Made by a program: the position numbers and the translations under genes. A stretch of DNA of 64,000 nt from Granulicella paludicola (GTDB taxonomy: Bacteria > Acidobacteriota > Terriglobia > Terriglobales > Acidobacteriaceae). The notes below the pieces were generated by a model. The model was not told the origin of the DNA. It was given only the letters and a program-made list of their open reading frames with translations, and ran no database searches. Below are positions 1,696 to 16,268 of this stretch, in pieces (position 1 is the stretch's first letter; every line of letters begins with the position of its first letter). The stretch spans positions 558,001-622,000 of the forward strand of contig NZ_JAGSYC010000026.1 in NCBI RefSeq assembly GCF_025685545.1. The letters are read 5' to 3'.

Positions 1696-2148
1696 TCACG
1701 ACCTGGCTACGAGTCCTATGCCGACAATCAGCAACAAGCCCCCGATGATGCGGCTAGCGTTCAACGGGTGCGGCTGCATCCTGAACCAGCCGAAGTGGTC
1801 GATGAGAAGAGACGTGATGAGAGCGGCCGTTACAGTGAAGCCGACAAACGGCCCGGCACCCACCTTATTCACCAGCGTGAGCCCGGCATATACCTGCACG
1901 GCACCTACCAAGCCGCCGACAACGGCCCACCAAGGCAGCTCCGCCAGGTCCTTCTGCGTTGGCAGTGGATGCGGGTGGATCAGCGTAGCCCCGGCGAAAA
2001 AGAATGTGATCAGAGTGAAAGAGATCGCGGAAGCAAGCCATGGGTTCACAACATGCTTATTTAGCTGCCCGTTCATGGCTGCACCGCAACTTTGCAGTGC
2101 ACCTCCAATGATGATGAAGGGGATGATCCAGCCGGCGTTCGCGTTCAT
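1696..2148 (-). CDS. DMT-superfamily transporter, YdcZ/DUF606 type
   Basis: A 150-residue, very hydrophobic protein with about five membrane segments. The GALQSCGAAMNGQL motif near residue 17 and the conserved VVGGLVGAVQVY / VNKVGAGPFVGFTVTAALITSLLIDHFG blocks are typical of the short YdcZ (DUF606) branch of the drug/metabolite transporter superfamily. The last block is the signature 'G...f.q...Sl.iD..G'. The start is an ATG with AAGGAG at good spacing. It is the last gene of a four-gene leftward operon, 14 bp after the ArsB-like permease. Short family members usually work as homo- or heterodimers. The substrate is unknown. Confidence 0.85.
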   Translation of the reverse strand: MNANAGWIIPFIIIGGALQSCGAAMNGQLNKHVVNPWLASAISFTLITFFFAGATLIHPHPLPTQKDLAELPWWAVVGGLVGAVQVYAGLTLVNKVGAGPFVGFTVTAALITSLLIDHFGWFRMQPHPLNASRIIGGLLLIVGIGLVARS

Positions 2149-2162
2149 GAGTGTCTCCTTGT

Positions 2163-3467
2163 TTAGTGTTTTCCAACCAGCATGTTCATCAGAATGGCTC
2201 CGCCCAGCGCTGCGAAGAGCGCCACCGGCATTGCGACGGCGCCCACTTTCAAGAACTTCCAGAAGCTCACATCGAGCTTCTCTCCGCCTGCGCCTTCAGC
2301 CGAGTCTTTGCGAAGGGCGAGCAGCCACAGGATGGTAGCCAGCGAGCCGGTGACTGAGAGATTCGGTCCGAGATCGACACCGATGAGAACGGCATTCGCC
2401 ATGAGTCCTTTTGTGTGGGCAGCCTGAATCGTTCCGCCCGCGATCAGTCCCAGCGGCAGGTTGTTCACGATGTTGTTTGCGATACCGACTACGAAGCCAA
2501 CAACAAGCGCGCCAACGTTCTGGCCGAGATGCGATGCCCAGGCGAGCCACTGTTGCGTCAGGTTCAACGCTCCCTGACTCTCCACTGCATCCACCATGAC
2601 AAAGAGCCCCGCAACAAGGATCAAGGTCGCCCAGCTAATCTCTTTTGCGAGATGAAATGGATTGCTTCTCGCCTTGATGGAAACGACTGCGGTAATCACC
2701 AGGGCCGCAAGGCACGTAGGCAGTCCCAGGTCCTTCCTGAACGCGGACGCCGTCAACAGCACCGCAATCATCAGGGCGAGACCAGCAAGAACAAGCCTGC
2801 CATTGCTGCTCAGCTTTGCATCCTCAACCTCGCAGTCGATGCTCTTGCATAGGTCCTCGCGGAACATAAAGCGCATTACGAAGTAGGTCACGAGGATGGA
2901 GAAGACGGACGGAACACCGAAGTCTGCGAGCCACGTTCCCAGGGGTGGCATGCCGGTGTGGAAGACGACGAGGTTTGCGGGATTCGAGATGGGCAGCACA
3001 AAGCTTGCCGCGTTCGCGATCAACGCGCATACGAACAGGTAGGGCAGTGGCGAAACCTTAGCCTTGCGCACCGCCGTCAGAATAGCGGGCGTCAGAACGA
3101 CGGCCGTGGCGTCGTTCGACATGAAGATGGTGACCAGTGTTCCCACGCCATAAACAAGCAGGAAGAGACGCGAGCAACTGCCGTTGGCGCCGCGCACTGC
3201 GACAGAGGCGACCCAGTCGAAGACACCCTGCTCTCGCGCAAGTTCGCTGAGCAGCATCATGCCGATGAGGAACAGGTAAACGTCGCTGCCCTTGGCTACC
3301 GCCTGCCCTGCCAACTTCAAAGGCACGAGACGAAGAACGATAAGGAGCAACGCTCCGCCGGAGATCCACCAGACTTCGGGGATGCCACGCGGGCGCGTCA
3401 GCATCAGAGCGATGCTGATGGCCACGATCAGCGGCAGAACAATACGTGCAATGTCTATCGGAATCAT
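2163..3467 (-). CDS. ArsB/NhaD-type ion permease
   Basis: A 434-residue integral membrane protein with about 10-12 hydrophobic segments. The motifs MSNDATAVVLTPAIL (about residue 118) and ISNPANLVVF (about 159), and the second-half IANNIVNNLPLGL and GVDLGPNLSVTGSLATILW, are the paired re-entrant signatures of the ArsB/ion-transporter superfamily. Members export arsenite or exchange ions across the inner membrane. The ATG at 3467 overlaps the stop of the upstream phosphoesterase (TGATG), so I prefer it to GTG codons a few bases earlier. No ArsR or ArsC gene is adjacent, so arsenite as substrate is only a possibility. Confidence 0.85.
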   Translation of the reverse strand: MIPIDIARIVLPLIVAISIALMLTRPRGIPEVWWISGGALLLIVLRLVPLKLAGQAVAKGSDVYLFLIGMMLLSELAREQGVFDWVASVAVRGANGSCSRLFLLVYGVGTLVTIFMSNDATAVVLTPAILTAVRKAKVSPLPYLFVCALIANAASFVLPISNPANLVVFHTGMPPLGTWLADFGVPSVFSILVTYFVMRFMFREDLCKSIDCEVEDAKLSSNGRLVLAGLALMIAVLLTASAFRKDLGLPTCLAALVITAVVSIKARSNPFHLAKEISWATLILVAGLFVMVDAVESQGALNLTQQWLAWASHLGQNVGALVVGFVVGIANNIVNNLPLGLIAGGTIQAAHTKGLMANAVLIGVDLGPNLSVTGSLATILWLLALRKDSAEGAGGEKLDVSFWKFLKVGAVAMPVALFAALGGAILMNMLVGKH

Positions 3468-4609
3468 CACCACTTCTTTCCGTTCTTATTGGGGCCTAGC
3501 TGAGTTCCGAGAAGTCCATGTTCCGGCCACGCTTCGAGTGCATTGTCCTGATCGCGCTCCTCGGACTTCCGCTCTGTACGCTGTCCAACCGCGAGACGCA
3601 TCTCATCGTTCGCGCTCGCGCCATCCGCATCTTTGAAGGACACCCTCAAAGTATGGACACCTTCGCCCACCTTGGGGATTTCAGCCTGCCAGACGCGACT
3701 GTTCTGGATGCGCTTCATAGGCAGTGTCTGACCGTCTATATGTGCTGTCGCTTCGACGGCCTCCGCTTCACTCCAAAACTTTGCACGCACTTTGATACTC
3801 TCTTGCAGAACTTCACTTGATCTGGTCAGAAGCCGCTCATCGCTTGGCGAGGTGATCACGACAGTGGGCAGCTTACCCAGCTCGATAAAGCGCCAGCTCA
3901 CAACATCACCATCGAGGCTGGTGACAGAATAGCCAACCGGCCCTTCTTCAATCTGTCCGGTAGAACGAGTGGCAGAGTAGAGCGTGCGGCCATCGTTGGC
4001 GAGTTCGTTGTAGTGCGTGTGACCCATATCGATCAGTCGAACATCGTAGTCACGAACGAGACGACTCACCTCCTCTCCGCCAGCCTTCAGGTCGCTCGGG
4101 TAGCAGTGCAATAAGAGAACTTTTTTCTGACCTCTATGAGTTGCTCCTTGCAGCTCGTCTTCAACCCAACGCAGCTGCTCCTCGTTCACAGTGAAGGAGG
4201 GTGGCTCGGGAACATCGAAGGCGTTCATGGCGACGAAGCGCGTATCTCCTACAGTGAAGGCATAGTGAGTCTGTTCCGACATCGCCTCTTTAAAGTTTGC
4301 GAAGCTCTTCTCATGCACGTCGTGATCGCCGAGGATGGCACACCACGGAACCTCCAGGCGATCGAGCTCGCCTCGCACGACTGCGTAGGCGGCGCGGCTG
4401 CCATCGTCAGCCACGTCTCCCGGCAGGAAGACAAAGCTTACTGAATCAGCAAAGGCTCGATTGACCTCATTCACAATCGCTGCAAGATCGAGATGGTTCT
4501 GCTCACCGGCCCTGGTCATATGGAGGTCGCCAAAATGAACCCAGCTGATCACGCCTGCAGCGTCGGGCGGTTGCGGTTGAAAGGTACGTTTCGGTGCGAG
4601 GTGATTCAT
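3467..4609 (-). CDS. Calcineurin-like metallophosphoesterase
   Basis: A 380-residue protein with the full metal-binding set of calcineurin-like phosphoesterases: GDLHM (residue about 27), GDVADDG (64), GDHDVH (about 95, with D in place of the usual N of GNHD), LLHCYP (about 168) and GHTHYN (about 197). The family hydrolyses phosphomonoesters or phosphodiesters, including cyclic nucleotides, with two metal ions. After the catalytic domain there is a beta-rich tail (residues 250-345) resembling an Ig-like domain, then a charged end. No signal peptide is seen. It overlaps the MFS gene start by four bases and the permease start by one, so the three are translationally coupled. The substrate is unknown. 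Confidence 0.85.
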   Translation of the reverse strand: MNHLAPKRTFQPQPPDAAGVISWVHFGDLHMTRAGEQNHLDLAAIVNEVNRAFADSVSFVFLPGDVADDGSRAAYAVVRGELDRLEVPWCAILGDHDVHEKSFANFKEAMSEQTHYAFTVGDTRFVAMNAFDVPEPPSFTVNEEQLRWVEDELQGATHRGQKKVLLLHCYPSDLKAGGEEVSRLVRDYDVRLIDMGHTHYNELANDGRTLYSATRSTGQIEEGPVGYSVTSLDGDVVSWRFIELGKLPTVVITSPSDERLLTRSSEVLQESIKVRAKFWSEAEAVEATAHIDGQTLPMKRIQNSRVWQAEIPKVGEGVHTLRVSFKDADGASANDEMRLAVGQRTERKSEERDQDNALEAWPEHGLLGTQLGPNKNGKKW

Positions 4610-5886
4610 GCTGAAAGCTCCTGGGCAGTATGTGTTGACGATGTGTGTTCTGATATATCCGGGTTTGTGAGCGTCTCAGGAATTGCAGCCCACAGAACCG
4701 CGAATGCGAGTGCAGCGATCGCACCTAGCGACAGGAAAGAGATGCGGTAGCTGAAGTGCTGAATCAGCTTTCCGCCGAACGTCGTACTGAGAGCCGCACC
4801 GAGCCCGACCGCTGTTGCAAGACTGCCCTGAACGAGATTGAAGCGTCCCGTGGCGCGGGTCCTGTCTGCTATGACGAGGATCGAGACCACACCAAAGATC
4901 GCATTCGCGATGCCATCCAGTAGCTGGATCGCGATGAGGCTCTCCGTGTTGTGGGTCAAGGTATAAAGAAGTGCGCGGACGGGAAGCACTCCGAAGCCAA
5001 CCAGCAGTAGAGGCTTTCGTCCATGCAGATTGGCGAAGCGTCCTATCGCTGGAGCGAAGCACATGATGACGACCTGCGTCACGATGATGCAGGCCGACAT
5101 GAACGGAGCTGCCGAGGCCCGCGAGCCATGCGAAAGCATCTCGCCGAGCTGCGGCAGCATGGCAGCGTTTGCGAAGTGAAAGAGAAAAGCACACGCAAGA
5201 AAGATCAGAAGAGTGCGGTCCCCGAGCAGCGTCTTCATCACAGAAGCTCTCGCAGCGACCTCCTTACCCTCCACCTCGATCGCTCCGCCACGAGCAAGGT
5301 CGTAATCAATGTCCTTGCTCTTGATCGCGCGGATCGCAAGCACCGTGGGGATGGTGAGCACGGCAGCGGTGATGAAGATCGCACGGTTCCCGAAGAAATG
5401 ACTCATACCGGCAATTAACAAAGCGCACGCCACATTGCCGGCTGAATTGAAGGATTGATTTTTTCCGAACTGACGATCGAAGAACGTGACGCCGACCATT
5501 CCCATCGTGACCGCAGCAAGTGTTGGCCCGAGGAATGGCCCGGCTCCTCCGATAAGGACCTGCGATGTATACACAGCCCACGGTGCAGCCGTGATGCTGA
5601 GTAGCACCGCCCCCACCGCGAGTACCGCGGAGGCGGCAACAAGGATGAGTCTCTTCGACCTGACCTGATCGACAATCGCGCCAGCCGGAGTCTGCAGAAT
5701 TACTGTAATGATGCCACCGAGGGTCAACGCCACCCCGACGCGTCCCGGCTCCCAGCCGGCTCCCGCCAGATACGCCGCGAGAAACGGTCCTAGGCCGGTT
5801 TGCACATCGGCGAGAAAGAAGTTCGTCGCCTCGAGAGCGTGGATACTTTCTTGCTTGCCAGGATCGATTTCAGCAGCGTTAGACAT
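4606..5886 (-). CDS. Major facilitator superfamily transporter
   Basis: A 426-residue protein with twelve predicted membrane segments and the MFS loop 2-3 signature, here TPAGAIVDQVRSKR (about residue 68), plus a second-half counterpart IGRFANLHGRKPLL (about 271). The N-terminus ANFFLADVQTGLGPFLAAYL resembles a branch of MFS often linked to arsenic or phosphonate-related operons, but I cannot fix the substrate. It is the first gene of a leftward operon (MFS, phosphoesterase, ArsB-like permease, YdcZ-like). No good ribosome-binding site is seen before the ATG, so the start is probable rather than certain. Confidence 0.88.
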   Translation of the reverse strand: MSNAAEIDPGKQESIHALEATNFFLADVQTGLGPFLAAYLAGAGWEPGRVGVALTLGGIITVILQTPAGAIVDQVRSKRLILVAASAVLAVGAVLLSITAAPWAVYTSQVLIGGAGPFLGPTLAAVTMGMVGVTFFDRQFGKNQSFNSAGNVACALLIAGMSHFFGNRAIFITAAVLTIPTVLAIRAIKSKDIDYDLARGGAIEVEGKEVAARASVMKTLLGDRTLLIFLACAFLFHFANAAMLPQLGEMLSHGSRASAAPFMSACIIVTQVVIMCFAPAIGRFANLHGRKPLLLVGFGVLPVRALLYTLTHNTESLIAIQLLDGIANAIFGVVSILVIADRTRATGRFNLVQGSLATAVGLGAALSTTFGGKLIQHFSYRISFLSLGAIAALAFAVLWAAIPETLTNPDISEHTSSTHTAQELSA

Positions 5887-6044
5887 ACAGAATGACTTTC
5901 GGGATAACCAGACACTTTTGCGTTGCGAGCTTAGCGGCCGCTCTCCAGCTTGAGAGGACCATTGCGTTCGATGCAGTCGAAGTCCAGCCCCATCAAGCAG
6001 GTAGATTTAATTTTTTGAGGCCAGGTTGTTCTGGATGTCCTAAT

Positions 6045-6077
6045 CGGGTGCGCGAGCCTTGAAGGCCCGTGCATCCG
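6045..6077 (-). terminator. Strong hairpin downstream of the proline-rich protein gene
   Basis: Arms 6045-6058 and 6064-6077 pair over 14 positions with one A/C mismatch and two G.U pairs around a five-base loop. It follows the stop of the leftward gene ending at 6114, so a terminator is likely. There is no T-run, so termination would be atypical or protein-assisted. Confidence 0.45.
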
Positions 6078-6113
6078 GTTAGTGACAGCGAGGAGTTCAC
6101 TCGTCAAGCGATC

Positions 6114-6761
6114 TTAATCTTGAGGAGGCGGATCCATTCCGTCCGGTGGTGGCGGTGGTGCTCCGTTCGGAGGGGTAGGCGGAGGCCCAACCTCGAGTCC
6201 CGGTGGAGGCGGAGGTGGAACTACATCAGGACTCGCCGCTGACAGCGGGGCATCAGGAGTCGCACCACAAGGAGGGGGAGCCACGCCCCTGCTTCTGCGT
6301 CGCGGCGCTGGCTGCGGGGATCCCGGGGGCGGCGGTGCTGCACCTTCGGCCAGTGGCCCGGGAGCCGACGCATTTGCAGAGAATGTCTGATCCTTCAGCC
6401 GGACGCTCGCCGCTTCGACTTGTAACTGTCCGTTGATCTCTGACTTCATGCCAGTCACGGTTATCTTTTCGCCCTTGTGAAGTGCGGGGCCCAGCTGACC
6501 ACCGAGCTCGGGTGAAAGATCAACCACGCTGCCATTTTGGAGATACAGGCTGCGTACCTCTCCCCCCGGGCCTGCATTGAAAGCCAGGACGCGAGAAGAC
6601 TGGGTGACTACCGAGAGTTGTGCCTCCGGCGAAGGAGCGGGAGCGGTATTCGGGATACCCGCGGGAGGTGCTGGTGGTGTGGGAGTCGGACTCTGTGCAA
6701 ACGCCACAGAGCTAAGAGCGAATCCGAGAGCTGTGATTTTTAGAGAAGTTGAAATGTACAT
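6114..6761 (-). CDS. Secreted proline-rich protein with a small beta-barrel-like domain
   Basis: The start is ATG 6761, not the longer upstream frame. It is preceded by AGAGG and by a -24/-12 promoter at 6787-6802, while the longer frame would run through the kinase gene. The 215-residue product has a signal peptide (MYISTSLKITALGFALSSVAFA), a short Pro/Thr linker, a domain of about 75 residues (AQLSVVTQSSRVLAFNAGPGGEV ... MKSEINGQLQVEAASVRL) resembling DUF5666-like or OB-fold domains, and a C-terminal tail of about 70 residues dominated by poly-proline. The periplasmic part of the divergent kinase is also proline-rich. I infer this is the regulated output, or an accessory sensor, of that two-component system. 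Confidence 0.7.
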   Translation of the reverse strand: MYISTSLKITALGFALSSVAFAQSPTPTPPAPPAGIPNTAPAPSPEAQLSVVTQSSRVLAFNAGPGGEVRSLYLQNGSVVDLSPELGGQLGPALHKGEKITVTGMKSEINGQLQVEAASVRLKDQTFSANASAPGPLAEGAAPPPPGSPQPAPRRRSRGVAPPPCGATPDAPLSAASPDVVPPPPPPGLEVGPPPTPPNGAPPPPPDGMDPPPQD

Positions 6762-6786
6762 CGGCAATACCTCTAACCGGTAGTAG

Positions 6787-6802
6787 GGCAAGCCGCGTGC
6801 CA
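6787..6802 (-). promoter_or_regulatory. Sigma-54 (-24/-12) promoter for the secreted proline-rich protein
   Basis: The minus strand reads TGGCACGCGGCTTGCC, a full TGGCACG-N4-TTGC match to the RpoN consensus. The GG and GC pairs are separated by exactly ten bases. Transcription would start near 6776, giving a 5' leader of about 15 bases that holds the AGAGG ribosome-binding site before ATG 6761. The adjacent regulator carries the GAFTGA loop needed to activate sigma-54 polymerase. Confidence 0.75.
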
Positions 6803-6825
6803 TTCCTTGAAATCGTCGATGTGCT

Positions 6826-6908
6826 GCAATCGCGGCATTTCCGGGGGTCGAGGACTTCAGGAGTCTCTTTGCCTGACCGCAATCTGCCCACCCGCTGTGC
6901 TGATTGCG
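6826..6908. promoter_or_regulatory. Candidate upstream activating sequence between divergent sigma-54 promoters
   Basis: An inverted repeat CGCAATC (6878-6884) / GATTGCG (6902-6908) is separated by 17 bases. A third half-site GCAATC is at 6826-6831. The centre of the dyad (about 6893) is about 92 bases from the -24 element on either side, a typical position for NtrC-family binding. That the neighbouring regulator binds here is inference. Confidence 0.45.
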
Positions 6909-6985
6909 TACGCATGGTTTGCGATGGCTGAGGTTCTTCGCATCTGAATCTCCATAAAGCCGCCAACACCCGGGAGAAGTCCCGA

Positions 6986-7002
6986 TGGCAGCCAGGTTGC
7001 AT
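6986..7002 (+). promoter_or_regulatory. Sigma-54 (-24/-12) promoter for the histidine kinase / regulator operon
   Basis: The plus strand reads TGGCAGCCAGGTTGCAT. It matches TGGCAC-N5-TTGCA with one change, and the GG and GC pairs are ten bases apart. A start near 7012 would give a leader of about 47 bases before the kinase ATG. Together with the leftward promoter this implies autoregulation of the operon by its own regulator. Confidence 0.65.
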
Positions 7003-7058
7003 ACGAATACAACAGATGCTCGATAGAAGTTCAAAAAGCATGACGAGAGAGGAGCCGA

Positions 7059-8726
7059 ATGCCGAAGATCTTTTGGAGAAGCCTCCGTTCCCGCATCCTT
7101 TTGCTCGTCGTTCTGACGTTGCTCTTTCTCACAGCCGCAGCCATCAGTCTGTTTACGTTTCTTCGCAATCGCCATGCTGAAACACTGTCCCTCACCGAGC
7201 ATCATCTCGTCAGCGTGGCTGTCAGTCTCGCGCGGAACTATGCCGACCATCGGACTGCGAATGATTCTCTGCGGGCGATGGAACCGGGGCCACCAGCGCC
7301 GCCTCCACCGCCCTCGATCCCTCCGGCGCCACCGCGCCCCGGACATGAAAGGCCACCGCATCCCAAACCTGACCTTCTCAAGGGGCTCACGACAGAAACC
7401 TTGCAGCACGAGGACGGCATCGAAGGCGGATTCTACGCAGCCAGAGCGGATGCCCTGATTGGCTATGCCTTCCCGACTCATGAAGGCCCAGGGGCGGAAA
7501 AAGGTATGCCCGAGCGGGAGCGCCCCACCATCGAAAATCTTGCGAGAGAGGCCGTAGCGGCGAATGCGATAAGGACCTATCGCTTTGAGGGGACGCATGA
7601 TGCCATCCTCTTCGTAGCAGCTCCGATCCATGAGCCGTCACAGACAGATCAAACCGCCAAGACTACTGATGAAGTGACTGGAGCTGCGTGGCTGATGGAG
7701 CGTCTGCCCGGAATCGAGGGCGGACAGAACCGCGAGCTCTTATTTGGGAGTGTCGGCTTCGGAATTGCGGCGCTGATGACTGCGCTGCTCGCCGTATTCG
7801 TTACGACGGAAATTCGCAGCGGCGTGAACATCGTTCTCCAACGGCTGGGTTCCATGGAGGGTGGCTTGCCGGCAGCAGATCAGCAGATGCAGGACCGTCC
7901 TCCGCTCGAAGAATTCGACCGCGTCCTGCATGGGATCGACTCGCTCGCGCTCGCCTTACAGGAAAAGATCGAGAACGAGCGGACGCTGGAATCTCAAATG
8001 CGCCATAACGAACGGCTCTCCGCGCTGGGGCAGTTTGCCGCGGGGATCGCGCATGAGCTTCGCAATCCGCTTGGAACGATCCGAATGCGGACGCAGATGT
8101 GGCAGCGATCCACTGACGCGGAGGCGGCCAGGCGGAGCAGCACCGTGATCCTCGAAGAGATTGACCGGCTGGACACCATCATCAGTCGTCTCCTCTATTT
8201 CGCCAGACCAATTCAGCTTCAACTTCAACCCGTCTCACTGGGTGATCTATGTGCGATCACGGCGTCGACGTGGGCGGAAAAAGAAGCGGCTAAAGGCATC
8301 CAGATTATCTGTAAGGCAACGTCGCGCAGCGTCGTCACGGCAGACCGAGGCAGACTCCTCCAGGTGCTCGACAACCTGATGGAGAACGCCGTGCATTCGG
8401 CTTCGCACGCCACAGCGCAAGGTGGAAACGTGACGATCAGGACGGCGCTTGAGGCCGAATTCGCCCGCATCGACATCATGGATAACGGAAAGGGATTTAC
8501 GCCAGCAGCTCTGCGTCATGCCTTGGACCCGTTCTACACCACGAAGGACACCGGAACAGGGCTTGGTCTTTCCATCTCGTTTGAGATTGTGCAGGCTCAC
8601 GGAGGAGAATTACTTCTCGCTAACCGCGAAGGTGGCGGGGCCGTCGCTTCACTTCGATTGCCACTGAATGGCAACGATCGGAATACCCTAAACATGGCGG
8701 GACAAGAGGCAGGACAAGATGTCTGA
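7059..8726 (+). CDS. Membrane sensor histidine kinase (NtrB-like partner)
   Basis: A 555-residue kinase. A first membrane segment spans residues about 12-34. A periplasmic domain contains a proline-rich stretch (about 75-105), and a second membrane segment (GFGIAALMTALLAVFVTT) lies near 230-248. A linker is followed by the HisKA box AAGIAHELRNPLG, with the phospho-accepting His near residue 331, and by an HATPase domain with N, G1 and G2 boxes (LMENAVHSA, DNGKGFTP, GTGLGLSI). GAGGAG precedes the ATG. It overlaps the response regulator by eight bases and is presumably its cognate kinase. The signal is unknown; the poly-proline periplasmic part is unusual. Confidence 0.92.
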   Translation: MPKIFWRSLRSRILLLVVLTLLFLTAAAISLFTFLRNRHAETLSLTEHHLVSVAVSLARNYADHRTANDSLRAMEPGPPAPPPPPSIPPAPPRPGHERPPHPKPDLLKGLTTETLQHEDGIEGGFYAARADALIGYAFPTHEGPGAEKGMPERERPTIENLAREAVAANAIRTYRFEGTHDAILFVAAPIHEPSQTDQTAKTTDEVTGAAWLMERLPGIEGGQNRELLFGSVGFGIAALMTALLAVFVTTEIRSGVNIVLQRLGSMEGGLPAADQQMQDRPPLEEFDRVLHGIDSLALALQEKIENERTLESQMRHNERLSALGQFAAGIAHELRNPLGTIRMRTQMWQRSTDAEAARRSSTVILEEIDRLDTIISRLLYFARPIQLQLQPVSLGDLCAITASTWAEKEAAKGIQIICKATSRSVVTADRGRLLQVLDNLMENAVHSASHATAQGGNVTIRTALEAEFARIDIMDNGKGFTPAALRHALDPFYTTKDTGTGLGLSISFEIVQAHGGELLLANREGGGAVASLRLPLNGNDRNTLNMAGQEAGQDV

Positions 8727-10125: not shown

Positions 10126-10388
10126 CCTCATCCGCCATTCTTCAATCTCCAGGCAGGCGGCGCTCCAGGCAGGACACCATCAAAGTCTCCTCCTACTCAT
10201 TTCTATGGTTGCCTCTAGCTGACGTTGCGATCCCGCCGAGGGTATGAAGTCACATTTGGACCTACCGTGGAGGCCTATACACTCTGCATTCTATCTGCCT
10301 GCGCATCAAAGACTTACAAGATACGTGCACCAGTATCGCTGCAGCTGTAGTTGACACAGTGCACCTGATTAAGGCGAAGATAAGGCGA

Positions 10389-11558
10389 ATGAACTCCGCC
10401 GCCCAAACACGCTTTGCCGTCGAGTCGGCGCTTGCACGCCGTATTCCCGCGGCTCTTAGTCCACGACCTAAGACGGTGCGCGAGCGGTTGGCCTGCGACG
10501 TGGAAGAGCTGGATCGACTGCTGGGCGGCGGTCTGCCTGTAGGGGCTATTACGGAACTGGCGGGCATCGCCGGCTCAGGTCGGACGACTTTGGCGTTTGC
10601 CTATGCTGCGGCGGTAGCTCGGGATGGGCGTGTTCTTGCGTGGGTCGATGCCGGCGACACACTGGACCCCGCAAGCGCCGCGCTCAACGGCGTCGAGCTA
10701 TCGCGGCTGCTATGGGTGCGCTGCAAAGGCGAGAGCGAGTCGCAGACAGAGCTGGCGCAGAGCGTGGGGCCTACCTCCTTTGCAGGCGAGAGCCTACCCA
10801 CATCGGTAAAGGGATGCGGCAGCCCGCACCCTCGCAACGAAGTAAAGGGGATGCCTGAGGCGGTGAACGCCATGCTGCAGTCGCATGGAGGGCTGCTCGA
10901 TCACCATACGAGGCGCGAGCGAAAGTCTATCGGCACGCCAGGGATGCCGAATCGTCCCTTCGGGAAGGTAACGGATCGCGAGGAGCAGCGGCCCAGCGAC
11001 CGACAGCCTTCGCGCAAGGAACGGTCTCTGGCGCACGAGCCACGCTGTGCAGAGCCGCAGCCGCATCGCCGCAAAACGGATGAGGTGAAGGCTCCGCCTC
11101 CGCGTGTGGCACAGGCCACTCCGACGATGACGTATGCGAAGAGGAAGGCGGCTATGCCATGGTCGGCTCTGGATAACGCATTGAGAGCGACGGACCTGCT
11201 GTTGCAGTCCGGTGGCTTCGGGCTGATCGTGCTGGACCTCGGCGATGTTCCGGTGGAGCAATCGTGGCGTATCCCGATGTCGACATGGTTCCGTTACCGT
11301 GCTGCCTGCGAGCGTTCTCGCGCGAGCCTGCTGGTGCTCACGCAGCATCCCTGCGCGCGTTCAAGCGCGGAGCTTGTGATGCGCATGAGCATGGGCGACG
11401 TCGAGGCGGATGGCAATGTGCTTAGCGGTCTTTCTTTTAAAGCGGAGATCGAACGACAACGCTTTTCTGAGCAACCGCTGACTGTCGTTCCCATTCGCAA
11501 GCCGCCGCAAAAAGAACAGGCGGACGCGTGGAAAGGCAGGATGTCATGGGCGGTGTGA
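10389..11558 (+). CDS. imuA: ImuA, RecA-like mutasome protein
   Basis: A 389-residue protein with a RecA-like P-loop (AGIAGSGRTT, residues about 58-67) after the lead-in LDRLLGGGLPVGAITEL, and a Walker B-like strand LLLQSGGFGLIVLDL. It is the first gene of an imuA-imuB-dnaE2 cassette, which performs damage-induced error-prone translesion synthesis. ATG 10389 is preferred over GTG 10359, because the latter sits inside a TTGACA -35-like hexamer region and the ATG has AAGG before it. About 130 residues of low-complexity, Arg/Pro/Ser-rich sequence (about 115-245) separate the P-loop half from the Walker B half, so the protein is much longer than the 230-260 residues usual for ImuA. Confidence 0.85.
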   Translation: MNSAAQTRFAVESALARRIPAALSPRPKTVRERLACDVEELDRLLGGGLPVGAITELAGIAGSGRTTLAFAYAAAVARDGRVLAWVDAGDTLDPASAALNGVELSRLLWVRCKGESESQTELAQSVGPTSFAGESLPTSVKGCGSPHPRNEVKGMPEAVNAMLQSHGGLLDHHTRRERKSIGTPGMPNRPFGKVTDREEQRPSDRQPSRKERSLAHEPRCAEPQPHRRKTDEVKAPPPRVAQATPTMTYAKRKAAMPWSALDNALRATDLLLQSGGFGLIVLDLGDVPVEQSWRIPMSTWFRYRAACERSRASLLVLTQHPCARSSAELVMRMSMGDVEADGNVLSGLSFKAEIERQRFSEQPLTVVPIRKPPQKEQADAWKGRMSWAV

Positions 11559-13054
11559 CGGCTCAGTACGTCTGCGTGCATGTACCCGAGTTTCCTGCAC
11601 AGGCCCGGCTCCGCTTGAGACCGGACCAGTCAAAGGATGCGGTCGTGGTGATCGAAGGTGAGCGTCCGCTACAGACCGCGTGCAGCGCAAATCTGCGGGC
11701 GCAGCATATGGGCGTTGCTGCAGGCATGACGCGCGCTGAACTGGATGCCTTTCCGGAGTTGATTGTGCTGCTGCGCTCTGCTGTGGAAGAGCGCGCGACG
11801 CAGGCAGCCCTGCTGCAGATGGTGGCTGCTTTTACCCCGCGTGTCGAAGTTGTGCCCTCGCAGGAGGCCTTTGTCTGTGTGCTCGATATGGCCGGTGTCC
11901 AATGGATCTTTGGCGATGCAGAGCGCGTCATCGCCGCGATTGCGAAGGCTATCTGCTCGCTTGGATTGGTCGCCAGGCTTGCGAGTAGTTGCAACTTTCA
12001 TACTGCCGTTTGCGCGGCTCCCTTTGCGCGCAGCAAACCTGTAGTCATTCCAGCGGGAGTGGAACGCGAGTGGCTTGGACGCCTGCCCGTCTCGGCGCTG
12101 GGGCTGACCCCTGAACAAACCGAGCGGATGACGTTGTGGGGTGTGCGCACCTTGCGCGAACTTGCTGACTTGCCAGAGGTGGAACTTGTGGTGCGGCTGG
12201 GGCAGCATGGCAAACGGCTGCGACAACTTGCCATGGGCAGGCACCAGCACCTGATGGTGCCGGAGGAGGATGGACTTGCCTTTGAAGATGCCGCCGAGTT
12301 CGACGCCCCCGAGGATCGGCTCGACTCGCTTCTTTTCGTTGTTGGCCCTATGCTCGACCAGATGCTGCTTCGGGCTCAGGCCCATGCATACTCGCTCGCG
12401 TCGCTGACCATGACGCTCGCGCTCGATGGGGGAGCTGAGCATGTACGTACACTAAAGCCCGCGCTGCCATTGGCCGAGCGCGCCGTATGGCTGAAGCTTA
12501 TCCACCTCGATATCCAATCGCATCCACCCCCTGCAGGTGTGGTGGGTCTGCGGGTGTCGGCCAAGCCCGGCAAACGCGGCAAGGTACAGATGGGGCTCTT
12601 CAGCCCGCAGCTTCCTGAACCCACACGGCTCGACGTGACCCTGGCGCAGATTGAGGCGATGGTGGGGGAAGGCCGTGTCGGAAGTCCGCGTCTGCTGGAC
12701 ACGCACCATCCGCAGGACTTCGTCGTAGAACGCTTCGTCGTGAAGGTCGCGCAGAGCAAGTCAGAACATCCGCGCGTGTCCGCTGTTCTGCGTCGCCTGC
12801 GCCCTCCTGCAACGTTGCATATGTGGTTCGACGCAGGCTCTGACAGGCCGAACGCCTTCGCGCTCGAGGGGCGTCGCTATCGCGTGTTGGATGCCTTCGG
12901 CCCATGGCGTCGCAGTGGCGAATGGTGGTCGCAGCGTGTGTGGTCCCGCGATGAGTGGGACGTGCGCGCAATTGCAGGTGAGACCGCAATCACCTGCCTG
13001 ATTGTGCATGATCTTCTCCGTCATCAATGGGCGCTCGAGGCCTTCTATGACTGA
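11546..13054 (+). CDS. imuB: ImuB, Y-family polymerase homologue without catalytic residues
   Basis: About 502 residues from ATG 11546 (a GTG at 11528 is the alternative). The polymerase-like fold is recognisable from the thumb/HhH region (RLPVSALGLTPEQTERMTLWG, LRELADLPEVELVVRLG) and the little-finger part. The catalytic acidic motif of Y-family polymerases is replaced by YVCVHVPEFPAQ, and the SIDE motif is replaced by VCVLDMAG. This fits ImuB, a non-catalytic adapter that links DnaE2 to the sliding clamp. A clamp-binding motif QMGLF is present at about residue 350. It overlaps imuA by 13 bases and dnaE2 by eight, so the cassette is translationally coupled. Confidence 0.9.
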   Translation: MGGVTAQYVCVHVPEFPAQARLRLRPDQSKDAVVVIEGERPLQTACSANLRAQHMGVAAGMTRAELDAFPELIVLLRSAVEERATQAALLQMVAAFTPRVEVVPSQEAFVCVLDMAGVQWIFGDAERVIAAIAKAICSLGLVARLASSCNFHTAVCAAPFARSKPVVIPAGVEREWLGRLPVSALGLTPEQTERMTLWGVRTLRELADLPEVELVVRLGQHGKRLRQLAMGRHQHLMVPEEDGLAFEDAAEFDAPEDRLDSLLFVVGPMLDQMLLRAQAHAYSLASLTMTLALDGGAEHVRTLKPALPLAERAVWLKLIHLDIQSHPPPAGVVGLRVSAKPGKRGKVQMGLFSPQLPEPTRLDVTLAQIEAMVGEGRVGSPRLLDTHHPQDFVVERFVVKVAQSKSEHPRVSAVLRRLRPPATLHMWFDAGSDRPNAFALEGRRYRVLDAFGPWRRSGEWWSQRVWSRDEWDVRAIAGETAITCLIVHDLLRHQWALEAFYD

Positions 13055-16000
13055 CTCGCCCGAATACGTCGAACTGCATGCCGCCAGTGCTTTCAGCTTT
13101 CTCGAAGGGGCATCGCAGCCAGAGGACATTATGCAGGCGGCCTCCGATAAGGGGCTGCCATGCATCGCGCTGCTCGATCGCAATGGCTTCTATGGCTCCG
13201 CGCGCTTCCACTCAGCTGCAAAGAAGATCGGTATGAGGGCGCATGTCGGCGCAGAGATTGCCGTAGCCGATCTCGGCTTCCGCCTTATGCCATCTTTCGC
13301 ACTCCCTCATCAGCATCGCCGGCAGCCAGTGCGTCTGTCGTTGCTGTGTACCTCGCGTGTGGGATATCAGAACCTTTGCCAGCTCATCACTCGCTTCAAG
13401 ATGCGCGAGGCTACCAAAGTCGAGGGAGCAGCCACCTTAGACGATCTACGCGGGTTCAGCGAAGGTCTGATCTGCCTCACCGGCGGGGATGAGGGACCAC
13501 TAGCCTCCACACTGGTGAATGGAGGCATGGATGCCGGTCGGCAGTGCATTGAGAAGCTGACCCGCATCTTCGGCCGCCAGAACGTCTACGTAGAGTTGCA
13601 ACGCCATGGTCTGCGTGCAGAAGAAGCCCGCAATCAGGCGGCGCTGGATATCGCCGGATCCCTGCAACTGCCACTGCTCGCAACCAATGGCGTGCGATAT
13701 GCCACGCAGTACGACCGCGAGGTGATGGATGTTTTTACGGCAATCCAGCATCACCTGCCGCTCGATGAAGCAGGACGTCTGCTGCAGGTGAACTCGCAGA
13801 GGCATGTGCGTAGCGCAGCGAGTATGCGGAAGCTTTTTCACGATCTACCGGACGCTATTGAAAACACGCTGCTGGTGTCGCAGCGGCTGGAGTTTGAGCT
13901 GGACGATCTTGGCTATGAGTTTCCTGCGTATGAGACAGAGACCGGCGAGCCCATGGCGACATACCTGCGCAAACGTGTGGCTGAAGGAATTGAACATCGC
14001 TACGGTCCGAAGCGCGATGCAGCCCTGCACGAGCGCGCAAAGAAGCAGGCGGAGCATGAACTGGTGTTGATTGAGAAGCTCGGCTTTGCAGGTTACTTTC
14101 TCATCGTGTGGGACATCGTTCGTTATTGCAAGACGAACGACATCCTTGTGCAGGGTCGAGGAAGCGCGGCGAACTCTGTGGTCTGCTATGCGCTGGAGAT
14201 AACGGCGATCGACCCCATCGGCATGGACCTTCTGTTTGAGCGATTTCTCAATGAAAATCGCAAAGAGTGGCCCGACATCGATCTCGATCTGCCCTCGGGT
14301 GACAAGCGCGAACAGGCGATTCAATATGTGTATCGCCGCTATGGACAACTCGGTGCAGCGATGACGGCAAACGTCATCAGCTACCGAGGCAAGTCTGCCG
14401 CACGCGAGGTGGGCAAGGCTCTCGGCTTCGACGAGGAGACACTTGGACGCCTGTCCGGTCTCATCGGGCATTGGGAGTGGCGTAAAAAAGACGAGACGCT
14501 GACAGATAATTTTCGCCATGCCGGCTTCGATCCAAAGCATTGGCGTATCGCGAAGTATGTAGATTTGTGCGAGCGCCTGCAGGACCTGCCGCGTCATCTT
14601 GGTCAGCACTCCGGTGGCATGGTGGTGTGCCAGGGGATGCTCAACAAGGTGGTGCCGCTGGAGCGAGCATCGATGGCTGGGCGCAGCGTCGTACAGTGGG
14701 ACAAGGAAGATTGCGCCGATCTCGGATTGGTGAAGATCGATCTGCTCGGACTTGGCATGATGGCGGTGATGAAGGACTGCCTCACGCTCATCCCGCAGCA
14801 TTACAACATGCCCATCGACCTCGCGCAACTCCCGCAGGACGATCTCGAGGTCTACGACGTACTCTGCAAGGCCGACACGGTGGGTATGTTCCAGGTGGAG
14901 AGCCGCGCACAGATGGCCTCGATCCCCCGCAATGCCCCGCGCAAGTTCTATGACCTCGTCGTGCAGGTGGCCATCATTCGCCCTGGACCCATCGTCGGCA
15001 AGATGATGCATCCCTACATGCGGCGCAGGCAGAAGAAGGAAGAGATTACCTATCCACTACCGGAGTTGGAGCCGGTCCTGAAAAGAACTCTTGGAGTTCC
15101 GCTGTTTCAGGAGCAGCTTCTGCGCATCGCGATGGTCGTCGGCAACTTCACCGGCGCTGAGGCCGAGGAGCTACGCAAGGCCGTCGGTATGAGGCGTTCG
15201 TGGAAGCGCATGGAAGAACTGATGGTGAAGCTGCGCAACGGCATGGTAGAAAACAAGATCGCCCTTGAGACACAGGACGTCATCGTGCAGAGTATTCAGT
15301 CCTTCGCACTCTATGGCTTCCCTGAATCTCACGCTGCGAGCTTTGCTTTGATCGCGTATGCCTCGGCCTACTTCAAGGTGAAGTACCTTGCTGCGTTCAC
15401 CTGCGCCATGCTCAACAATCAGCCGATGGGGTTTTACTCCGCCGCTGTATTGGTCAAAGATGCGCAACGACATCTCCTGCGCGTGCATTATGTCGATGTG
15501 CAACAGTCTGACGCCGTCTGCACCGTTGAGCACGAGCCAAATGGCAAAGCGTCACTGCGGCTGGGATTGAATTACGTGCGCGGCCTCAAGGCAACGACAG
15601 CATTACAACTGGTGGCTGCGCGCAATCGCGATGGCCTGTTTGCCAGCGTCGACGATCTTTCACGCCGAGTATCCATGCTGACGCGCAGCGATCTTGCGCA
15701 GCTCGCGCGCATCGGCGCTTTGAACTCGCTCGATGGCGTAGGTCATCGTCGCGATGCCATCTGGCAGATCGAACAATCTGCTCGCAGCGTTGGGCCCTTG
15801 CTGCGCAGCAACGAAGCCCATGAGCTGCCCACATCTTCCCCTCTCAAGCGCATGGATACAAGTGAACGTCTGGTCAGCGACTACTCGGGTACAGGTCTTA
15901 CGACCGGGCCTCATCCCATGGCGTATCGCCGCGAAGAGCTTCGCCGTGCGAACGTCCTTTCAGCGAAGGAACTGCTGCAGCATCGGGATGGGCAACTCGT

Positions 16001-16268
16001 CATCGCAGCCGGGGCCGTGATTGCACGTCAACGCCCAGGCACGGCCCTCGGTTTTATCTTTCTCTCCATGGAGGATGAAACAGGTATTGCCAACGTCGTC
16101 ATACATCCTGATCTCTACGAGAGGCAACGCACGCTGGTGACTCGCGGCAAGTTCCTCAAAGTGTTCGGTCGGTTGCAGAACCAGGATGGCATCGTGCATG
16201 TAAAAGCAGAGCGCCTGGAACTGCTCGTCTCGGCACCAATTTCAATGTCTTCGCATGACTTCCACTAG
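13047..16268 (+). CDS. dnaE2: Error-prone DNA polymerase III alpha subunit DnaE2
   Basis: A 1073-residue C-family polymerase. The start is ATG 13047, giving MTDSPEYVELHAASAFSFLEG, rather than an upstream in-frame ATG inside imuB. The N-terminal PHP domain (1-270) has altered first motif residues (LHAASAFSFLEG). The polymerase domain carries YFLIVWDIVRYCK, QGRGSAANS and the catalytic PDIDLDLPSGDKRE. The C-terminal OB domain ends LEFILVS-type sequence (IVHVKAERLELLV). DnaE2 is the actual polymerase of the ImuA/ImuB/DnaE2 mutasome. Its stop overlaps the stop of the convergent glycosyltransferase by four bases, with no room for a terminator between them. Confidence 0.95.
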   Translation: MTDSPEYVELHAASAFSFLEGASQPEDIMQAASDKGLPCIALLDRNGFYGSARFHSAAKKIGMRAHVGAEIAVADLGFRLMPSFALPHQHRRQPVRLSLLCTSRVGYQNLCQLITRFKMREATKVEGAATLDDLRGFSEGLICLTGGDEGPLASTLVNGGMDAGRQCIEKLTRIFGRQNVYVELQRHGLRAEEARNQAALDIAGSLQLPLLATNGVRYATQYDREVMDVFTAIQHHLPLDEAGRLLQVNSQRHVRSAASMRKLFHDLPDAIENTLLVSQRLEFELDDLGYEFPAYETETGEPMATYLRKRVAEGIEHRYGPKRDAALHERAKKQAEHELVLIEKLGFAGYFLIVWDIVRYCKTNDILVQGRGSAANSVVCYALEITAIDPIGMDLLFERFLNENRKEWPDIDLDLPSGDKREQAIQYVYRRYGQLGAAMTANVISYRGKSAAREVGKALGFDEETLGRLSGLIGHWEWRKKDETLTDNFRHAGFDPKHWRIAKYVDLCERLQDLPRHLGQHSGGMVVCQGMLNKVVPLERASMAGRSVVQWDKEDCADLGLVKIDLLGLGMMAVMKDCLTLIPQHYNMPIDLAQLPQDDLEVYDVLCKADTVGMFQVESRAQMASIPRNAPRKFYDLVVQVAIIRPGPIVGKMMHPYMRRRQKKEEITYPLPELEPVLKRTLGVPLFQEQLLRIAMVVGNFTGAEAEELRKAVGMRRSWKRMEELMVKLRNGMVENKIALETQDVIVQSIQSFALYGFPESHAASFALIAYASAYFKVKYLAAFTCAMLNNQPMGFYSAAVLVKDAQRHLLRVHYVDVQQSDAVCTVEHEPNGKASLRLGLNYVRGLKATTALQLVAARNRDGLFASVDDLSRRVSMLTRSDLAQLARIGALNSLDGVGHRRDAIWQIEQSARSVGPLLRSNEAHELPTSSPLKRMDTSERLVSDYSGTGLTTGPHPMAYRREELRRANVLSAKELLQHRDGQLVIAAGAVIARQRPGTALGFIFLSMEDETGIANVVIHPDLYERQRTLVTRGKFLKVFGRLQNQDGIVHVKAERLELLVSAPISMSSHDFH

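Follow-up and report, generated by a model that had tools for sequence, protein, structure and literature searches.

What kind of control region lies between a leftward gene for a secreted, proline-rich protein and a rightward operon for a sensor histidine kinase and an NtrC-type response regulator in Granulicella paludicola? The two units diverge on contig NZ_JAGSYC010000026.1, within a 64,000-nt stretch of DNA that we refer to as the window and in whose coordinates all positions are given; the spacer is bounded by the secreted-protein gene (6114-6761, minus strand, start codon at 6761) and by the kinase gene, which begins at 7059 on the plus strand. A first-pass annotation had read this spacer as the centre of an autoregulated divergent module, with a σ54 promoter for each direction and one central site. 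Comparison between loci supports that reading, and we consider it very probable that the spacer is a bidirectional, autoregulated σ54 control region of the ZraPSR kind, combined with an unrelated accessory protein and a transport regulon of its own.

Both of the proposed -24/-12 elements are present (Table 1). The minus-strand element, TGGCACGCGGCTTGCC, has one mismatch to the consensus TGGCACGNNNNTTGCW (11 of 12 consensus letters), the plus-strand element, TGGCAGCCAGGTTGCA, has two (10 of 12), and the GG and GC doublets are 10 bases apart in both, as the first-pass annotation had noted. No σ70-like promoters or terminator-like sites were found in 5850-7100, and the genome contains one match to rpoN. 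Matches with two mismatches to the consensus were not enriched in the window (10 observed versus 13.8 expected from shuffles), and the genome-wide excess at one mismatch or fewer was small (71 versus 60 in a reversed control). The summed score of the divergent pair, on the other hand, was reached by 0 of 2000 dinucleotide shuffles of the window spacer when any gap from 60 to 260 was allowed. As motif counting is weak on its own, comparison between loci was used as evidence.

Among 300 genomes of the family, a search with the kinase picked up relatives in 15, G. paludicola included. A profile of its sensor part, which matched in 14 of 397 genomes of the order and in 9 of 396 of the phylum, contributed G414 and G762, respectively, so that 17 genomes and 17 loci with a kinase relative are known here; the named carriers belong with Granulicella, Edaphobacter, and Terriglobus. 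Stretches of up to 15 kb that surround the kinase relatives were compared (locus L070 is cut by a contig end), leaving out four distant catalytic-domain matches, four loci on the same contigs as those of G259, G240, G272, and G304, and the paralogous regulators L003-L006. A divergent -24/-12 pair with 183-187 bp between its outer ends occurs in 15 of the 17 loci, once per locus. These 15 are the only pairs scoring 17 or more at that gap in 282,405 bases, and every other 5-nt gap bin from 100 to 300 holds at most 5 of the 63 pairs found. Further, the score and gap of the pair were reached in 0 of 2000 shuffles in each of six locus spacers. When the spacers of eight of the ten close loci were compared (the window included; L059 and L063 dropped as near copies), mean pairwise identity was 87% for the minus promoter, 82% for the plus promoter, which is the more variable of the two, 0.80-0.81 for the central dyad, and 0.54 for the remaining 128 positions. 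By this comparison, the promoters and the dyad are conserved islands in the spacer. Lack of conservation in relatives was among the findings that the first-pass annotation had named as refuting its proposal; the promoters are kept in 15 of the 17 loci, and the dyad is kept as well, with more variation.

The dyad, CGCAATC-N17-GATTGCG, had been described as lying about 92 bases from each promoter, and from its centre to the outer T it is indeed 91 bases for one element and 93 for the other. The repeat itself is as described, but it forms part of a longer imperfect palindrome, CGCAATCTGCCCA-CCCGC-TGTGCTGATTGCG, with 13-base arms around 5 bases and 11 of 13 positions symmetric by hand count. It is located about 117-119 bp upstream of both predicted transcription starts, a distance that is usual for σ54 enhancers. 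Six of the eight close loci have an exact CGCAAT arm, and six an exact ATTGCG arm. The 31-mer at 6878 ranks second of 152 in conservation between the promoters, in a comparison that framed the dyad itself one base off, at 6879-6909. In 12 of the 15 scored loci, the top two palindrome centres include one that is 91-94 bp away from each promoter; this scoring also covered L067, whose row was not used in the palindrome shuffle test. The sequence of the dyad drifts between clades while its position is mostly kept, which would fit a regulator and a site that change together. The 4.96-Mb genome has a single exact copy of the 12 letters CGCAAT-N19-ATTGCG. Allowing for a mismatch disclosed no convincing second copy, with six one-mismatch places in the genome versus five places (up to one mismatch) in the reversed control; because these counts are at control level, the regulator is likely to be single-target, as far as sites with at most one mismatch are concerned.

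Two loci in which the flanking genes differ are informative on the geometry. In L069, whose kinase is only 39% identical to that of the window, the MFS transporter gene is on the kinase side, and yet the promoters are 185 bp apart, with a central site, GTGTACGCTGGCCGCTCACCATGTGAGCGGAAAGCGAACAC, at 92 and 93 bp from them; the pair and the dyad lie between the MFS gene and the secreted-protein gene. The L069 site is symmetric at 16 of 22 positions, a palindrome strength reached in 0 of 2000 shuffles. In L057 (G259, Granulicella rosea), the secreted-protein gene is missing, and both promoters and the dyad stay in place, facing the MFS gene.

Several observations weigh against the proposed control region. 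The window dyad, taken as a 45-bp palindrome (13 of 22 positions), is unremarkable on its own: among 2000 letter shuffles of the spacer, 375 equalled its strength at some position and 14 within 3 bp of the middle. The L065 palindrome was equalled at some position in 325 of 2000. Palindrome strength alone was therefore rejected as evidence, and the weight of the dyad rests on its conservation. The dyad is also less constant than the promoters, with exceptions to the 91-94 bp placement in L061, L066 (103.5/79.5), and L068 (82/91), and in L070 the central palindromes rank only third and fourth. With regard to the promoters, L068 lacks a pair at 183-187 bp, its best pair being weak and 173 bp apart, L071 has a different layout, and the L069 plus promoter is the weakest (8 of 12), with almost no leader before the MFS gene. 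Finally, the loci are not independent (L058 and L059, and L062 and L063, are near copies), the pair score limit of 17 was fixed after the scores had been seen, and the 227 bp that separate the secreted-protein gene from the MFS gene could accommodate a further promoter.

The regulator has a receiver domain, an AAA+ domain with the GAFTGA loop that the first-pass annotation had reported (here within ERGAFTGA), and a Fis-type helix-turn-helix, which makes it an NtrC-type σ54 activator. We rejected an assignment as NtrC proper, as it scored 443.2 bits against the NCBIfam TIGR01818 cut-off of 558.6. The kinase carries 17 prolines within the 98 residues before GYAFP, and the secreted protein is proline-rich at both ends, in agreement with the earlier description; a histidine motif in the kinase insert is not constant among relatives. 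The AlphaFold model of the sensor domain is of moderate quality (predicted local-distance difference test score, pLDDT, 77.1). A search of this model against the PDB returned nothing at E 0.001, with a CHASE4 domain as the best match (E 0.0074), and from its topology we would guess the domain to be Cache/PAS-like.

Neither Pfam nor NCBIfam gave a match for the secreted protein. Its core is modelled as six strands and one helix (block pLDDT 89-96), and the top PDB matches (best E 1.7e-4) are oligonucleotide/oligosaccharide-binding (OB)-fold domains, from lysyl-tRNA synthetases and from single-strand-binding proteins. The alignment spans about 83 columns and the TM-score, taken by the whole query, is only 0.25-0.30; half of the query is proline-rich with a low-confidence model. 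We predict from the model that the core is an OB-fold. Profile searches of solved structures gave no convincing match for either the sensor domain or the secreted protein. The arrangement differs in two other loci. In L065 (G243), two stretches match the profile of the secreted protein; rather than occupying the divergent position, they follow the regulator gene, about 4 kb past the start of the kinase gene. In L071 (G762, from another family of Acidobacteriota), a relative of the secreted protein, which matches the profile at E 5e-6, has the same orientation as the kinase and regulator genes; the stretch noted there spans about -1260 to -189, counted from the start of the kinase gene. Upstream there is a -24/-12-like site, GGGCACATCCATTGCA, at -1155 and, about 83 bp further upstream, a long palindrome that was read by eye.

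Table 1. Features of the divergent module and its neighbours, in window coordinates
Feature	Position	Strand	Remarks
σ54 (-24/-12) promoter, leftward operon	6802-6787	minus	TGGCACGCGGCTTGCC; predicted transcription start about 6776
σ54 (-24/-12) promoter, kinase-regulator operon	6986-7001	plus	TGGCAGCCAGGTTGCA; predicted start about 7012
Dyad CGCAATC-N17-GATTGCG	6878-6908	none	Core of a longer imperfect palindrome; the NtrC-type regulator probably binds here (predicted)
Membrane sensor histidine kinase, 555 aa	7059..8726	plus	HisKA, HATPase_c; probably a periplasmic domain, with a Pro-rich insert
NtrC-type response regulator, 468 aa	8719..10125	plus	Response_reg, Sigma54_activat, HTH_8; 8-base overlap with the kinase gene
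Secreted protein, 215 aa	6114..6761	minus	Signal-peptide-like start (by eye); predicted OB-fold core about 50-128; Pro-rich tails
Gap with gene remnant	5887..6113	minus	C-terminal NGPLKLESGR left (translated gap compared with relatives)
MFS transporter	4606..5886	minus	MFS_1; neighbour kept in relatives; probable operon member
Calcineurin-like phosphoesterase	3467..4609	minus	Metallophos; 4-base overlap with the MFS gene
CitMHS/ArsB-like permease	2163..3473	minus	PF03600 and PF02040 over cut-off; 7-base overlap with the phosphoesterase gene
DMT_YdcZ membrane protein	1696..2148	minus	PF04657; last gene of the probable operon

The first-pass annotation had named a single leftward target gene. 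That gene is present, but it heads a longer row, which probably forms an operon for the secreted OB-fold protein, the MFS transporter, the phosphoesterase, the permease, and the YdcZ protein (Table 1). The last four genes occur in the same order and on the same strand in 11 of the 17 loci (the window, L056-L064, and L066), a count that includes L063, where the YdcZ gene is cut by the end of the fetched stretch. Elsewhere, L065 and L068 keep the phosphoesterase, permease, and YdcZ genes, L069 the permease gene only, and L067 the MFS gene only; L070 is cut, and L071 has none of the four. The MFS genes on the kinase side of L068 and L069 are 31-33% identical. In 11 of 16 relatives, the row also contains a lysine-rich, histidine-containing gene. 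Its product has about 190 aa, a start rich in KKAAKKA and an HHD motif, and no Pfam family was found for it over cut-off; as judged by the translated comparison, the gap at 5887-6113 holds the remnant of this gene, which the window's row has lost.

The permease scores 111.9 bits against Pfam ArsB (PF02040; cut-off 22.2). We rejected its assignment as an ArsB arsenite pump, its scores being below the NCBIfam ArsB cut-offs (157.9/457, 135.9/415, and 126.7/760 bits). A weak PADLOC match of the phosphoesterase to 'Effector, Endonuclease' (E 4e-4) was read as a shared fold, and PADLOC gave none for the two other proteins scanned. Beyond the regulator gene, on the plus strand at 10359-16268, we noted a RecA/ImuA-like gene (RecA PF00154, 40.8 bits; NCBIfam ImuA, 30.7 of 150 bits) followed, by eye, by ImuB- and DnaE-type genes, perhaps a translesion cassette.

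The first-pass annotation knew of no precedent for the layout, but there is one: E. coli zraP-zraSR has the same anatomy (PMC8249747, PMC7657598). There, binding of ZraR in the zraP-zraS spacer and autoregulation are reported, and ZraR is tentatively classed as single-target, although other targets (mgtA and a longer list from chromatin immunoprecipitation) are also given (PMC8249747, PMC7657598). The spacer appears in a table of RpoN sites (PMC8743547), and ZraP is described as a repressor of ZraSR (PMC10848872). In E. coli K-12, we found TGGCACGGAAGATGCA on the minus and TGGCATGATTTCTGCT on the plus strand of this spacer, 140 bp apart, with a palindrome (16 of 20 positions) 65.5 and 74.5 bp from the promoters. 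ZraPSR (HydHG) and the window therefore share a periplasmic-protein gene that faces a kinase/NtrC-type operon, paired -24/-12 elements, and a central palindrome, but differ in the distance between the promoters (140 versus 184 bp) and in their proteins. The window regulator is 41% identical to ZraR and scores 353 bits against the PRK10365 cut-off of 760; the kinase resembles ZraS in its catalytic part only (172.4 bits, PRK10364 cut-off 479); and the accessory protein, a predicted OB-fold without a Pfam match, has no significant similarity to ZraP (BLASTP E 0.68). Further, transport and phosphoesterase genes follow on the accessory side in the window, whereas E. coli has none there. By analogy, we infer that the module works like ZraPSR, but it is not ZraPSR itself, because the identity tests for ZraR, ZraS, and ZraP all fail.

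Other systems are alike in part. In D. vulgaris, the divergent σ54 promoters of orp1 and orp2 are reported to be co-activated by one enhancer-binding protein, DVU2106 (PMC3897727); IHF sites are needed there, the gene content relates to cell division, and the available text names no two-component pair. QseG-QseEF and CpxP-CpxAR resemble the window in having a lipoprotein or periplasmic partner that tunes a sensor kinase (PMC6075780), and no facing σ54 pair is described for them in the part of that source at hand. A search of the literature on Acidobacteria, including Granulicella and Edaphobacter, together with σ54 and two-component or histidine kinase, found no such module among the titles listed, one of which concerns ECF sigma factors; this is no proof of absence. 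Overall, the layout is already known, and the new part is the Acidobacteria version with its different accessory and effector genes.

In the switch that we propose, an envelope signal would be sensed by the outer domain of the kinase, which would then phosphorylate the NtrC-type regulator. The regulator would assemble on the single central dyad and, by DNA looping, its GAFTGA loop would act on RpoN-polymerase at both promoters, about 92 bp to either side. The rightward output would be more kinase and regulator and hence self-amplifying, and the leftward output would comprise the secreted OB-fold/Pro-rich protein, the MFS transporter, the phosphoesterase, the CitMHS/ArsB-like permease, and the YdcZ protein. 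The role of the secreted protein may be that of an effector or, on the model of ZraP, that of a modulator of the sensor.

Could the -24/-12 matches instead be due to chance, and the spacer be kept for other reasons? The absence of enrichment of two-mismatch matches in the window would agree with this, but the shuffle tests, the conserved islands, and the fixed-gap pair in 15 of 17 loci make it extremely improbable. A division of labour, with the NtrC-type protein acting at one promoter only and a different σ54 activator at the second -24/-12 site, also appears very unlikely to us. Candidates would be available, inasmuch as the genome encodes one or more additional NtrC-type regulators (one of them 41% identical, at C19:842995-844341), and the greater variability of the plus promoter might be taken in the same sense. 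A shared activator is favoured, however, by the single conserved dyad, which in 12 of 15 loci is almost midway between the promoters, and by the retention of this dyad in L069 although the MFS gene has changed sides.

The place of the dyad, about 117-119 bp upstream of both predicted starts, is typical of an enhancer, and the one-way kinase operon of L071 likewise has a palindrome about 83 bp upstream of its -24/-12-like site at -1155; we therefore think it unlikely that the dyad mainly binds a repressor or an architectural protein and not the module's own regulator. Such a role would be in line with the drift of the dyad sequence between clades, and IHF sites are reported to matter between the divergent orp promoters of D. 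vulgaris (PMC3897727). Compatible with the bidirectional σ54 control region is the hint, given in the first-pass annotation, that the secreted protein feeds back on the kinase through the proline-rich parts of both. The position of its gene is that of the gene for ZraP, which is periplasmic and represses ZraSR, and a relative of the secreted protein adjoins the kinase even in another family (L071 in G762). We regard this partnership as possible but rather doubtful, the hint being weakened because the two proline-rich features come apart: G. rosea (G259) keeps the Pro-rich kinase, but a search of its genome for the secreted protein gave 0 matches at E 0.001, and G295 and G162 have the Pro-rich secreted protein together with a kinase that lacks the Pro insert.

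The distribution of the module suggests that it may have moved between genomes. None of the 27 other genomes of the genus has the window regulator; three of them give matches with E no worse than 1e-100, at 41-45% identity throughout, as does a paralogue in the own genome. This second NtrC-type regulator of G. paludicola (G000:C19:842995-844341) is 41% identical to the window regulator, and like matches are found in G010 and G025. Across genera, the kinases of G215, G259, and G304 are 88, 89, and 77% identical to that of the window, compared with 68, 70, and 66% for RpoN; within the genus, RpoN identity is 71-73% for three genomes, and three others, whose RpoN came in pieces, are left uncounted. 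Because the kinases are more alike across genera than RpoN, horizontal transfer is suggested, on the basis of identities only, for proteins that differ in their rate of change.

We put forward, as a tentative view, that the spacing between promoters and dyad (183-187 bp, with the dyad midway) may itself be under selection in a self-contained, horizontally spreading regulon, in which one symmetric enhancer would serve two operons while flanking genes are lost or moved, the accessory protein would belong to a secreted OB-fold family, and the regulon would handle some, perhaps anionic, compound. We have seen no earlier link between this OB-fold family and a sensor kinase. The 17 genomes, with their losses and moves of genes, offer a natural series for one σ54 enhancer that would serve two promoters and for how strictly distance is kept. 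The ZraPSR plan would be extended to Acidobacteria with unrelated accessory and effector genes, and the module may offer a first way into the regulation of a secreted OB-fold family, nameless in both Pfam and NCBIfam, and of a set of transporters of soil bacteria.
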